A stretch of DNA of 64,000 nucleotides from Simplicispira suum (GTDB lineage Bacteria > Pseudomonadota > Gammaproteobacteria > Burkholderiales > Burkholderiaceae_C), in the NCBI RefSeq assembly GCF_003008595.1, contig NZ_CP027669.1:2356001-2420000 (forward strand). The letters run 5' to 3'. Every line of letters starts with the position of its first letter. Positions within the stretch are counted from its first letter, which is position 1. Below the pieces are notes generated by a model. The model was not told where the DNA came from. It saw only the letters and a program-made list of their open reading frames with translations, and made no database searches. Below are positions 3,723 through 7,205 of the stretch, one piece after another. The position numbers and the translations under genes were made by a program.

Positions 3723-3789
3723 GCGTTCCCCGGTGTGGGAACTGCGGCGCGCTGGGCGGGGTTTTGGGGCCGCGCCCTAAAATGCCTTG

Positions 3790-5274
3790 ATGAGTACCCG
3801 TACCCCTTCTGCCGCATCCCACGCGGCCCCCACGCGCGAGCGCATCGACCTGGCCGCGAGCCTGCTGCTGACCCCTTTCGGTCTGGACGAGAGCCACCTT
3901 GCACGCGCGCTGGCTGAGATTCGCGCGCACCGCGTGGACGACGCCGATCTGTACTTTCAGACGACCCGCAGCGAGGGCTGGAGCCTGGAGGAGGGGATCG
4001 TCAAGACCGGCTCCTTCTCGATTGACCAGGGCGTGGGCGTGCGCGCCGTCAGCGGCGAGAAAACGGCGTTTGCCTATTCCGATGACATTTCTGAAGCCTC
4101 GCTGCTTGATGCGGCCCGAACCGTGCGGTCAATTTCGGCATCCGCGCAGCAGGGACGCGCGCGAATAGCTTCTAAAAAGATAGCAAAAAGCCGATCGCTG
4201 TATGTCGGCATTGACCCCATTGGCACCCTGGGCAGCGCCGACAAGGTGGCACTCCTGGAGCGTGCCGAGCAGCGCGCCCGCGCCAAGGACCCGCGCGTGG
4301 CGCAGGTCATGGCCGGGCTGGCGAGCGAGTACGACGTGGTGCTGGTGGCGCGCGCCGACGGCACGCTGGCAGCCGACATCCGCCCCCTGGTGCGCCTGTC
4401 GGTCACGGTGATTGCCGAGCAGGACGGCCGGCGCGAAATGGGTTCGGCGGGCGGCGGCGGACGCTTTGGCCTGGCGTATTTCGACGACGAACAAATCGCC
4501 CAGTACGTGGACGAGGCCGTGAATGCAGCCCTGGTCAATCTCGAGTCGCGCCCGGCGCCGGCCGGCGAAATGACGGTGGTCCTCGGCCCCGGATGGCCCG
4601 GCATCCTGCTGCACGAAGCCATCGGCCACGGTCTGGAGGGCGACTTCAACCGCAAAGGGTCCAGCGCTTTTAGCGGCCGCATTGGCCAGCGCGTGGCGGC
4701 CAAGGGCGTCACGGTGCTCGACGACGGCACGCTGCCAGACCGGCGCGGCTCGCTCAACGTGGACGACGAGGGCCACACCAGCGGGCGCAACGTGCTGATC
4801 GAGGACGGCATTCTCAAGGGCTACATCCAGGATTCGCTCAATGCCCGCCTGATGGGCGTGGCCCCCACCGGCAACGGCCGGCGCGAGAGTTACGCGCACA
4901 TCCCCATGCCGCGCATGACCAACACCTACATGCTGGGCGGCGACAAGGACCCCAAGGAAATCGTCGCCAGCATCAAGAAGGGCCTGTACGCCACCAACTT
5001 CGGTGGGGGGCAGGTGGACATCACCTCGGGCAAATTCGTGTTCTCGGCCAGCGAAGCTTTCTGGGTCGAAAACGGAAAGATCCAATACCCGGTCAAGGGC
5101 GCCACCATCATTGGCAGCGGTCCCGAATCGCTCAAGCGCGTGGGCATGATCGGCAACGACATGCGGCTCGACAGCGGTGTCGGCACCTGCGGCAAGGAAG
5201 GCCAAAGCGTGCCTGTCGGCGTTGGCCAGCCCACCCTGCGCATCGATGGGCTGACGGTGGGCGGAACCGCGTAA
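3790..5274 (+). CDS. tldD: Metalloprotease TldD
   Basis: The 494-residue protein is a member of the TldD/PmbA peptidase family. It carries the zinc motif HEAIGHG at residues 275-281 and the conserved C-terminal segments SASEAFWVENG and GIGND-like MIGNDMRLDSGVGTCGKEGQSVPVGVGQPTLRI (read as separate strands). TldD works with TldE (PmbA) to degrade small unfolded or modified peptides; pmbA is not in this window. ATG at 3790 is preferred over the TTG three bases upstream. A short AT-rich insertion-like patch at 4160-4192 encodes a Lys/Ser-rich loop and resembles an end of the dispersed repeat found elsewhere here. A -10-like TAAAAT lies a few bases before the start. Confidence 0.94.
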   Translation: MSTRTPSAASHAAPTRERIDLAASLLLTPFGLDESHLARALAEIRAHRVDDADLYFQTTRSEGWSLEEGIVKTGSFSIDQGVGVRAVSGEKTAFAYSDDISEASLLDAARTVRSISASAQQGRARIASKKIAKSRSLYVGIDPIGTLGSADKVALLERAEQRARAKDPRVAQVMAGLASEYDVVLVARADGTLAADIRPLVRLSVTVIAEQDGRREMGSAGGGGRFGLAYFDDEQIAQYVDEAVNAALVNLESRPAPAGEMTVVLGPGWPGILLHEAIGHGLEGDFNRKGSSAFSGRIGQRVAAKGVTVLDDGTLPDRRGSLNVDDEGHTSGRNVLIEDGILKGYIQDSLNARLMGVAPTGNGRRESYAHIPMPRMTNTYMLGGDKDPKEIVASIKKGLYATNFGGGQVDITSGKFVFSASEAFWVENGKIQYPVKGATIIGSGPESLKRVGMIGNDMRLDSGVGTCGKEGQSVPVGVGQPTLRIDGLTVGGTA

Positions 5275-5315: not shown

Positions 5316-5867
5316 ATGGTCGCATCGCGTTCCCGCTCGCAGCTCACCGTCCAGTCGTTTGGCGACGTCAGCCGCTTTTTGCGCTCGGGCGTGGCCGACG
5401 AAGAGTCGCGCCAGCTGCGCGACAGCATCGGTGCACTGGCTCTGCAGATAGACGACGCCATCACTACCCGCCGCGCGGCGCCAACCGCGCCGGCCGTGCC
5501 GGACACCCCGGAGATCACGCGCCAGGCGGCCAACCTGATGAAGTGCGTGCGCGAGCACCAGTTGTTCGTGACCGGCATGGGCTCGGCCTGGCACGCGCTG
5601 TACGAGATGGGTTCTTACCAGCTCGCGTTGCGCAGCCTGCGCCGTGCCGTCGAGGCCTGGCACCATGCGTTGGCGCAACGCAGCCCGCTGGAGGGGCCAG
5701 CGTTTGATCGTGTGGAGTTGCTGTCCTGGCGGACCCTGGGCGAGGGGCTGCTACTGATCGACATGTACGAGCAGGGCGAGAACGTGCACAGCGAGCCGGC
5801 TTCTCGCCCCAAGCCCGGCAGCGCTTGGCAGCGTGCACTGGCCTGGTTGCGCCGCAGAAGAAAATAA
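5316..5867 (+). CDS. Conserved hypothetical protein
   Basis: I do not recognise this 183-residue protein. It is predicted to be soluble and mostly helical, with no signal peptide, no Cys-rich motif and one Cys. A Pro/Ala-rich linker sits around residues 50-68. A helical block follows (ITRQAANLMKCVREHQLFVTG, then YQLALRSLRRAVEAWHHAL). The end is very basic (WLRRRRK). It starts 42 bases after tldD on the same strand and ends just before the aroG leader, so it may be co-transcribed with tldD. The reading frame has normal high-GC codon use, which supports it as a real gene. Confidence 0.65.
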   Translation: MVASRSRSQLTVQSFGDVSRFLRSGVADEESRQLRDSIGALALQIDDAITTRRAAPTAPAVPDTPEITRQAANLMKCVREHQLFVTGMGSAWHALYEMGSYQLALRSLRRAVEAWHHALAQRSPLEGPAFDRVELLSWRTLGEGLLLIDMYEQGENVHSEPASRPKPGSAWQRALAWLRRRRK

Positions 5868-5908
5868 ACTGGCAAATGACGCACCGGCGCTGTGATACAT
5901 TCGCGCCC

Positions 5909-5965
5909 ATGCATTTGCGCAGCGCTTTCTACTTTTGGTTTTGGTTCTCGGTCCCTGGCGGATGA
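5909..5965 (+). CDS. Aromatic-rich leader peptide of the DAHP synthase gene
   Basis: A short frame of 18 codons reads MHLRSAFYFWFWFSVPGG. Seven consecutive codons (5927-5947) specify only Phe, Tyr or Trp. It sits 112 bases ahead of the DAHP synthase start and directly upstream of a perfect intrinsic terminator. This is the layout of transcription attenuation by ribosome stalling, where scarcity of charged aromatic tRNA would halt translation and prevent termination. There is no clear Shine-Dalgarno before the ATG. A -10-like GATACAT ends only eight bases before it, so the leader might be read from a nearly leaderless transcript. Confidence 0.75.
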   Translation: MHLRSAFYFWFWFSVPGG

Positions 5966-6040
5966 GAGGCAAGCGCGCAAGCACCTGAACACTTCCCACC
6001 CAACCGCCGACGCTGCAAAGCCCGGCGGTTTTTTGTTTTT
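5956..6040 (+). promoter_or_regulatory. Transcription attenuator ahead of aroG
   Basis: The terminator stem is AACCGCCG at 6002-6009 with CGGCGGTT at 6023-6030, a perfect 8-bp helix, followed by TTTTGTTTTT. A competing pairing is possible between UGGCGG at 5956-5961, inside the last leader codons, and CCGCCG at 6004-6009 (five Watson-Crick pairs plus one wobble). A ribosome stalled on the aromatic codons would leave 5956-5961 free and favour this antiterminator. A ribosome reaching the stop at 5963 would cover it and allow termination. The pairing is seen in the sequence; the regulatory logic is inference. Confidence 0.72.
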
Positions 6041-6077
6041 CCGATCTCCTCTTTTTTACATTTTTCGAAAGAGTTCC

Positions 6078-7205
6078 ATGACTGCAGCAGCACACCCTTC
6101 CAGCGATGCCTGGTACCGAAGCGTCGAGAAAACCAGCGAAACCGACGACGAACGCATCAAGGAAATCACCGTGTTGCCACCCCCAGAGCATCTGATCCGC
6201 TTCTTCCCGATTCGCGGAACCAAGGCCGAGAGCCTGATCAAGCGCACGCGGCGCAGCATCCACGACATCATGGCCGGCAAGGACGATCGCCTGCTGGTGG
6301 TCATCGGTCCGTGCTCCATCCACAACCCGGAAGCGGCGCTGGACTATGCCCGCAAGCTGCAGACGGCGCGCGAAAGGTACAAGGACACTCTGGAAATCGT
6401 GATGCGCGTGTACTTTGAAAAACCGCGCACCACGGTGGGCTGGAAAGGCCTCATCAACGATCCCTACCTGGACGAGAGCTACCGCATCGACGAAGGCCTG
6501 CGCATCGCGCGCCAGCTGCTGATCGACATCAACCGCCTGGGCGTGCCGGCGGGCAGCGAGTTCCTCGACGTGATCTCGCCCCAGTACATCGGTGATCTGA
6601 TCAGCTGGGGCGCCATCGGCGCGCGCACCACCGAAAGCCAGGTGCACCGCGAGCTGGCGTCGGGCCTGTCGGCACCCATCGGCTTCAAGAACGGCACCGA
6701 TGGCAACATCCGCATCGCCACCGACGCCATCCAGTCGGCCAGCCGCGGTCACCACTTTTTGTCGGTGCACAAGAACGGCCAGGTGGCGATTGTCGATACC
6801 AAGGGCAACAAGGATTGCCACGTGATCCTGCGCGGCGGCAAGACGCCCAACTACGACGCCGCCAGCGTGGCGGCTGCGTGCAAGGACCTCGGAGCCGCCA
6901 AACTGCCAGCGACCTTGATGGTCGACTGCAGCCACGCCAACAGCAGCAAACAGCACGAACGCCAGCAGGATGTGGCGCGCGACATTGCGGCGCAAGTGGC
7001 TGCGGGCTCGCGCAGCGTCTTCGGTTTGATGATCGAGAGCCATCTGGTGGCGGGTGCCCAGAAGTTCACGCCCGGCAAAGACCAGCCCGCAGCGCTGACC
7101 TACGGTCAGAGCATTACCGATGCCTGCCTGGGCTGGGACGCGTCACTGGCCACGTTGGAAGAACTCGCGGCTGCGGTCACCACCCGGCGCAAGGCGGCGG
7201 TGTAA
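6078..7205 (+). CDS. aroG: 3-deoxy-7-phosphoheptulonate (DAHP) synthase, class I
   Basis: This 375-residue enzyme condenses phosphoenolpyruvate with erythrose 4-phosphate, the first committed step of the shikimate pathway. Class I motifs are clear: VVIGPCSIHN near residue 75, YFEKPRTTVGWKGLINDP near 120, GARTTESQ near 185, GFKNGTDG near 205 and VDCSHANSSK near 285. The length equals the family norm of about 350-370. The start at 6078 follows a GAAAGAG ribosome site. The aromatic leader and terminator just upstream suggest attenuation control by several aromatic amino acids. Which amino acid inhibits the enzyme cannot be told from this reading, so the choice of aroG over aroF or aroH is by similarity only. 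Confidence 0.93.
   Translation: MTAAAHPSSDAWYRSVEKTSETDDERIKEITVLPPPEHLIRFFPIRGTKAESLIKRTRRSIHDIMAGKDDRLLVVIGPCSIHNPEAALDYARKLQTARERYKDTLEIVMRVYFEKPRTTVGWKGLINDPYLDESYRIDEGLRIARQLLIDINRLGVPAGSEFLDVISPQYIGDLISWGAIGARTTESQVHRELASGLSAPIGFKNGTDGNIRIATDAIQSASRGHHFLSVHKNGQVAIVDTKGNKDCHVILRGGKTPNYDAASVAAACKDLGAAKLPATLMVDCSHANSSKQHERQQDVARDIAAQVAAGSRSVFGLMIESHLVAGAQKFTPGKDQPAALTYGQSITDACLGWDASLATLEELAAAVTTRRKAAV

Follow-up and report, generated by a model that had tools for sequence, protein, structure and literature searches.

The DAHP synthase gene of Simplicispira suum found in the analysed window (the whole stretch of 64,000 nucleotides, or 64 kb, from contig NZ_CP027669.1) is preceded by a short element that is very probably a ribosome-mediated transcription attenuator of the trp type, which would answer the supply of aromatic aminoacyl-tRNAs. 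This reading is built on the anatomy of the element, its deep conservation, constraint at the coding level, compensatory changes, the spacing of its parts and modelled switching.

The gene (6078–7205) encodes a class I 3-deoxy-7-phosphoheptulonate (DAHP) synthase of the aroFGH type with 375 aa, which matched TIGR00034 (aroFGH) at 534.3 bits (cut-off 173.2) and also PF00793. Upstream of the attenuator lies tldD (3787–5274), and between the two is an ORF of 183 aa (5316–5867) with no match in Pfam or NCBIfam. The preliminary description had called an 18-codon leader with seven consecutive aromatic codons, an 8-bp terminator stem with a U tract ahead of DAHP synthase, and a pairing that competes with the terminator, and all of these were confirmed, with the elements and the gene lying on the forward strand. 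The leader ORF (5909–5965) comprises 18 codons and a TGA stop, has no Shine-Dalgarno sequence and encodes the peptide MHLRSAFYFWFWFSVPGG, in which codons 7–13 (5927–5947; TTC TAC TTT TGG TTT TGG TTC) read Phe-Tyr-Phe-Trp-Phe-Trp-Phe and form the putative regulatory codons. An in-frame ATG 33 nt further upstream could lengthen the ORF to 29 codons, and the conserved -10 element falls inside that possible extension. The left arm of the terminator (AACCGCCG, segment 3, 6002–6009) and its right arm (CGGCGGTT, segment 4, 6023–6030) enclose a 13-nt loop and are followed by the U tract, a T-rich stretch in the sequence (6029–6040); a possible, weak ribosome-binding site of DAHP synthase (GAAAGAG, 6067–6073) was also read from the sequence, and the ATG of the gene is at 6078. 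Segment 2, the 5′ strand of the predicted antiterminator (5956–5968), contains UGGCGG (5956–5961) and GAGAG (5964–5968) and overlaps the leader stop codon. The competing pairing of 5956–5961 with 6004–6009 consists of five Watson-Crick pairs and one U-G pair at the end.

The window and shuffled sequence served as the background for chance. When the 210-nt intergenic stretch was dinucleotide-shuffled 2000 times, a short ORF (8–45 codons) with seven aromatic residues in eight never arose (six in eight were reached by 6/2000), and the leader is the only short ORF of such composition on either strand of the window, so the aromatic run is genuine and not a chance occurrence.

Relatives were regarded as near when their DAHP synthase was at least 80% identical to that of the window. 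Near loci comprised the best 80 of 567 confirmed named loci, complemented by a search of 26 genomes of the genus; the named loci include members of Acidovorax, Giesbergeria, Simplicispira, Paenacidovorax, Polaromonas, Rhodoferax, Hylemonella, Comamonas, Variovorax, Delftia, Curvibacter, Ramlibacter, Diaphorobacter, Extensimonas and Xenophilus, and some loci are shared between the two collections (L003 and L083 have the same reading). Since these loci were collected by the DAHP protein, they were not selected for the leader, except that 13 of the 112 near sets came from a search with the element model. The leader was found in 78 of the best 80 named loci (all except L011 and L059) and in 101 of 105 near loci (93 distinct regions), and it was aromatic-rich in 101/101 of those with enough upstream sequence. 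The other four loci cannot show it: L011 has only 31 nt upstream, L091 and L106 have too little upstream DNA, and L059 carries a group II intron (RF00029, 47.3 bits, L059:70–141) directly upstream of DAHP synthase, in the usual place of the attenuator, so that a leader cannot be seen. Group II introns often sit behind terminators.

Comparisons of the parts of the element were made on 198 sets, near and far, chosen for having the leader. These exclude L028 and L097 (region containing N), L187 and L210 (leader not properly called), L112 (equal to L001), L217–L219 (gene absent), L011, L091 and L106 (short upstream sequence), L059 (intron), and L002 and L107–L111 (paralog only); L220–L248, L269–L272 and L284–L288 are also outside the 198 sets.

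The aromatic run is kept through synonymous change across relatives. Inside the runs of 176 distinct leaders, TTN codons were TTT in 494 cases, TTC in 273, TTA in 2 and TTG in 2; third positions were thus T or C in 767 cases and A or G in 4, which indicates that the leader frame is read, as a merely U-rich RNA would differ. This distribution argues against the idea that the leader is untranslated and that its U-rich stretch binds a protein or Hfq, which would choose between the hairpins. Such binding would fit the U-rich run, the missing Shine-Dalgarno sequence and a few far loci (L187, L210, L288) that lose the frame or the aromatic codons and keep the hairpins; the near-set ATG, however, also coincides with the predicted transcription start, and we consider this alternative highly improbable. 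Furthermore, Phe was encoded by TTT in 495 of 777 leader codons, compared to 279 of 1556 codons in the DAHP genes that these loci carry, which were used as codon background. The less-used Phe codon thus appears to be favoured in leaders, a bias expected if slow decoding were useful.

A translated leader could also act as an arrest peptide, the nascent chain and a small molecule jointly halting the ribosome, as in the case of TnaC and free Trp, with the terminator being controlled by this halt. Recurrent run patterns among near relatives (FYFxYFWF, FYFWFWF) are in line with this. Arrest peptides usually need specific residues, whereas here Phe, Tyr and Trp interchange between families and the part downstream of the run varies with the reading frame. 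As the preference for TTT moreover points to decoding, an arrest peptide is very unlikely.

Among the 176 distinct leaders Phe occurs in 176, Tyr in 170 and Trp in 123. The proposal in the preliminary description that one leader senses all three aromatic amino acids fared differently with distance: it is likely to hold for the relatives of the window, as 89 of 91 distinct near leaders contain all three, but only 33 of 85 distinct far leaders do so and Trp is missing from 51 of them. A narrower version, nested within the attenuator reading, is that Phe supply alone, perhaps together with Tyr, is sensed, and that the Trp codons are bystanders or of minor weight. The universal presence of Phe speaks for it, as does the C. 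glutamicum aroR-aroF leader, described as Phe-Tyr-Phe (in the accessible parts of PMC4046766 and PMC11802643), for which the latter, in the same part, reports that transcription rises when ribosomes stall upon Phe limitation and that Tyr has no effect. The near leaders argue the other way, both in holding all three amino acids and in often placing a Trp codon 12–15 nt before GGCGG (in those read by eye), a good place for stalling. This narrower version is less likely than not.

The observation that a -10-like element lies just upstream of a leader without a Shine-Dalgarno sequence extends well beyond the window. In the window, the extended -10 element TGATACATT (5893–5901, forward strand; mostly TGCTACATT in relatives) lies 7 nt 5′ of the leader ATG, and the best -10 hexamer ends 6–8 nt 5′ of this ATG in 103/103 distinct near upstream regions and in 43/86 far ones. 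Transcription is predicted to start at 5909 or within about a base of it. Shine-Dalgarno matches of at least 5 nt before the leader were found in 0/189 distinct upstream regions and those of at least 4 nt in 9/189 (2/103 near, 7/86 far). Between terminator and DAHP gene, matches of at least 4 nt were seen in 82/103 near and 63/86 far regions, which is a rough comparison as that stretch is longer; before the DAHP start itself, similar words were present in 97/101 relatives by a loose rule and in 73/101 by a strict one. The leader is apparently translated without a ribosome-binding site, probably as a leaderless ORF. There is precedent for both features, with trpL of S. meliloti being a leaderless leader peptide (PMC7298713, accessible part) and leaderless genes with a promoter motif directly upstream having been mapped in B. 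cenocepacia (PMC4603805, accessible part).

A strong terminator was called in 198/198 sets, and the lowest real score was reached by 7 of 594 shuffled regions. Because the model that retrieved the far sets already contained the terminator, evidence free of such selection comes from the near sets collected by the DAHP protein; the GGCGG motif of far sets was likewise partly selected for, the search model having been built on the element. In an alignment of 43 sequences, 98.5% of terminator cells were paired, with 20 doubly changed cells (0/500 shuffles) and two pairs changed on both sides (reached by 41/500 shuffles). For the antiterminator, the same alignment gave 92.6% paired cells, 13 doubly changed cells (1/500 shuffles) and one pair changed on both sides (reached by 440/500 shuffles). 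Covariation is therefore thin by number of pairs, since most core positions hardly vary.

The motif GG(C/T)GG after the run is retained across different reading-frame tails (GG*, GGREASA*, PAVERSERT*, PAEER*) and is thus conserved as RNA; exact GGCGG is present in 188 of 198 sets. The core of the antiterminator (P1, GGCGG with CCGCC of the terminator left arm) was part of the minimum-energy fold in 164/164 distinct stretches holding both cores. The base beside the core across segments 2, 3 and 4 was C-G-C in 70 and T-A-T in 36 of 176 leaders, and this position can pair in the antiterminator in 132/176 (counting U-G) and in the terminator in 166/176. Beyond the core, a second helix is formed by GAGAG with a pyrimidine stretch near home and by other sequences elsewhere, a pairing that is absent from every search model. 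Among 37 representatives, its mean energy was -9.7 kcal/mol for cognate strands and -7.6 kcal/mol for swapped ones, with the observed mean reached by 0/20000 permutations; shuffling either strand gave 0/400. In the window, this helix is weak and ranks 25 of 37.

We propose that transcription would start at or beside the leader AUG and that the leader would be translated as a leaderless ORF directly behind RNA polymerase. With charged Phe, Tyr and Trp tRNAs plentiful, the ribosome would reach the stop codon and cover segment 2 (GGCGG..GAGAG), segments 3 and 4 would pair, and transcription would end upstream of the gene. If any one of these charged tRNAs were short, the ribosome would stall on the aromatic codons and leave segment 2 free just past its leading edge; segment 2 would then capture segment 3 ahead of the synthesis of segment 4, allowing DAHP synthase to be transcribed.

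The arrangement of the element agrees with the earlier suggestion that a stalled ribosome exposes the competing segment. The last aromatic codon ends 8–12 nt before GGCGG in 165/188 sets (near 104/109, far 61/79), and 8–12 nt beyond the last aromatic codon is the distance at which footprint size would place the front of a stalled ribosome. The stop codon lies 1–17 nt past GGCGG in 152/188 (near 104/109, far 48/79) and 20–28 nt past it in the other 36/188, where a finishing ribosome might uncover GGCGG. In the folding model, the probability of P1 before the right arm is made was 0.15 (near, n=97) and 0.19 (far, n=83) for ribosome-free RNA and 1.00 with a stalled ribosome, and the terminator formed with 0.96 when the ribosome sat at the stop codon; the window itself gave 0.01, 1.00 and 0.96, respectively. 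One near relative (L129) was counted with the far sets in the averages from this model and from the minimum-energy folds. At equilibrium, with the right arm present and the ribosome stalled, the terminator had 0.92 versus 0.02 for the antiterminator in near sets, and 0.91 versus 0.05 in far ones. As the terminator thus wins at equilibrium even with a stalled ribosome, the antiterminator must act kinetically, with trapping being assumed. The E. coli trp leader behaved similarly in the same model (antiterminator 0.05 free and 0.62 stalled; terminator 0.96–0.98 at equilibrium). A search for a selected 1:2 protector hairpin gave none: pairing of GGCGG with the leader sequence before it had 0.72, as opposed to 0.79 for shuffled leaders, and the low P1 of the free leader is therefore not due to such a hairpin, as shuffled leaders hide segment 2 at least equally.

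Covariance models built from 41 sequences (R1) and, more broadly, from 43 (R2) were run on 399 Burkholderiales genomes, with strict filters that lose weak matches. R2 matched at least 123 of the 399 genomes at E ≤ 1e-4, and full-length matches at E ≤ 1.1e-9 occurred in at least 107 of them under 14 family labels. At 101 of the 104 full-length R1 places examined (L116–L219), the stretch contained DAHP synthase. The gene was absent from the stretch examined at the remaining places, L217–L219, with E values of 0.0015–0.0019. Of 370 genomes drawn from the class, 16 had a model match at E ≤ 1e-4, three being of the window's family. Four full-length matches (L269–L272; E ≤ 1e-14) were outside the order, in two families of other orders, and 4/4 precede DAHP synthase; the remaining nine were partial.

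It has also been considered that the element mainly yields a terminated small RNA, or a peptide, that is released to act at other sites, as rnTrpL and peTrpL do in S. meliloti, with gene control being secondary. A probably leaderless transcript of about 130 nt with an intrinsic terminator would be suited to this, as for rnTrpL (PMC7298713, accessible part). Nearly all full-length places examined in the order (101/104) nevertheless stand before DAHP synthase, the antiterminator pairing is under selection, and the model search found one full-length copy in the organism's own genome and no second, the next matches being partial (E ≥ 0.04); a product acting chiefly in trans is thus extremely unlikely.

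The attenuator does not accompany every DAHP gene. Such a leader is absent from the paralogous DAHP synthase of the organism itself (57%, L002) and from four chromid- or plasmid-borne DAHP genes (Cupriavidus, Burkholderia arboris, Caballeronia, Mycetohabitans). Among 80 drawn Burkholderiales genomes, 60 had a DAHP synthase match at E ≤ 1e-80, and the leader was placed before the best match in 18. In a group of 29 loci (L220–L248), it was present in 12, absent in 16 and doubtful in L239, and in 20 short stretches (L249–L268) it was seen in 0 of the 8 that could be judged, the gene start not being found in the other 12. In two small-genome relatives of one genus (L221, L222), DAHP synthase follows closely behind a tldD-like end, and a leader was not seen. 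Relatives lacking the aromatic codons or the terminator had been named in the preliminary description as counter-evidence; none was seen among near relatives. At greater distance, the leader is missing from many DAHP genes of Burkholderiales, and broken leaders occur at L187, L210 and L288. Under one family label (f43), four model matches have no clear aromatic run and still have the hairpins: the run of L187 is cut by a stop once three Phe have been read, a single Phe is left in each of L210 and L288, and L287 reads MKTCYAHFTF. The leader can thus decay, and L187, L210 and L288 are possible natural cases of loss of sensing.

Fourteen further R2 places were inspected, with the DAHP gene present in five (L284–L288) and absent in nine (L289–L297). 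Five of the latter (L289, L290, L292, L293, L295) have a related-looking element, with an aromatic-run leader (e.g. MVTFSVVYNVYFYWYRSSGGAKGC), a GGCGG/CGGCGG core and a terminator, before an uncharacterised protein of 175–206 aa, which gave no Pfam match over cut-off (two tested) and no NCBIfam match (one tested). Homologues of one such protein are found in Aquitalea, Chromobacterium and Paludibacterium, one being named type III secretion protein in UniRef. On the reverse strand of L291, one frame read by eye gives Arg-Tyr-Tyr-Tyr-Tyr-Pro ahead of a terminator and may be a further Tyr leader.

The attenuator resembles trpL and pheL of E. coli in its regulatory codons and mutually exclusive antiterminator and terminator, with E. 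coli trp switching likewise in the folding model; the two E. coli leaders differ in that each responds to one amino acid and precedes terminal-branch genes. They also have a Shine-Dalgarno sequence and a 1:2 protector. For C. glutamicum, an aroR-aroF attenuator was reportedly described by Neshat et al. in 2014. As far as the accessible parts of the sources (PMC4046766, PMC11802643) describe it, that system is like the window in having Phe and Tyr codons in succession within a short leader that precedes a DAHP synthase gene, but belongs to another phylum, has a leader described as Phe-Tyr-Phe and is reported to be unaffected by Tyr. In S. meliloti the first bases of the trpL/rnTrpL transcript are the ATG of its leader ORF, as is predicted for the window; the S. 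meliloti leader differs in serving a trpE(G) operon, and trans-acting RNA and peptide functions are reported for it (PMC7298713, accessible part). The uORFC-13-1 motif before aroF in Acholeplasma similarly places a predicted Phe-coding uORF with a terminator ahead of a DAHP synthase gene, but is described with an RBS and at least one Phe codon, comes from a different phylum and is a prediction only (PMC8632094, accessible part).

Enterobacteria control aroF, aroG and aroH by TyrR/TrpR, thus acting on the same step in answer to the same amino acids, but through DNA-binding regulators (PMC5343134, accessible part). In the organism's own genome, TrpR was not found (the E. coli control was detected), which favours the attenuator reading, and none of five matches to the TyrR model was over cut-off. 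The earlier view that the leader is a distinct solution is to be qualified as regards attenuation, for which DAHP synthase has precedents in C. glutamicum aroR-aroF (PMC4046766, PMC11802643) and in the predicted Acholeplasma case (PMC8632094), as given in the accessible parts of these papers.

No Rfam family matched the leader at gathering score, neither in the window (5500–6500, E up to 10) nor at 20 loci (E up to 0.5). A match of the Rfam Trp_leader on L036 (3927–3993) was rejected, as it was below gathering score and far from the leader at 1313. No account of the leader in betaproteobacteria was found in the open-licence literature, and it was not found in the accessible parts of PMC2965389, PMC1262725, PMC1173090, PMC10219788, PMC4603805 and PMC12125101. 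The attenuator family is genuine and widespread and of a mechanistic kind already known (trp, pheA, C. glutamicum aroR-aroF), comparison gives good support to the proposed mechanism, and the RNA family is apparently new, being absent from Rfam and without a description found in the open-licence literature.

Tentatively, and with slightly less than even confidence, we suggest that the levels of charged Phe, Tyr and Trp tRNA are combined by one leaderless leader peptide into a single cis switch at the entry step of the whole shikimate pathway, that in much of the Burkholderiales this switch stands in for the TyrR/TrpR repressors as main control of transcription, and that related aromatic leaders have been placed before other genes, as in Chromobacteriaceae. 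In the accessible literature, control of the entry into aromatic biosynthesis is little described in beta-type proteobacteria, the TyrR/TrpR regulons in the accessible part of PMC5343134 being those of gammaproteobacteria, and for part of the Burkholderiales the element is a concrete, conserved answer. According to its prediction, a regulatory ORF would be translated leaderlessly; the element also contributes an RNA family absent from Rfam and provides a compact, natural means of sensing aromatic amino acids. The leader probably lets many beta-type proteobacteria switch on DAHP synthase only when aromatic amino acids are scarce.
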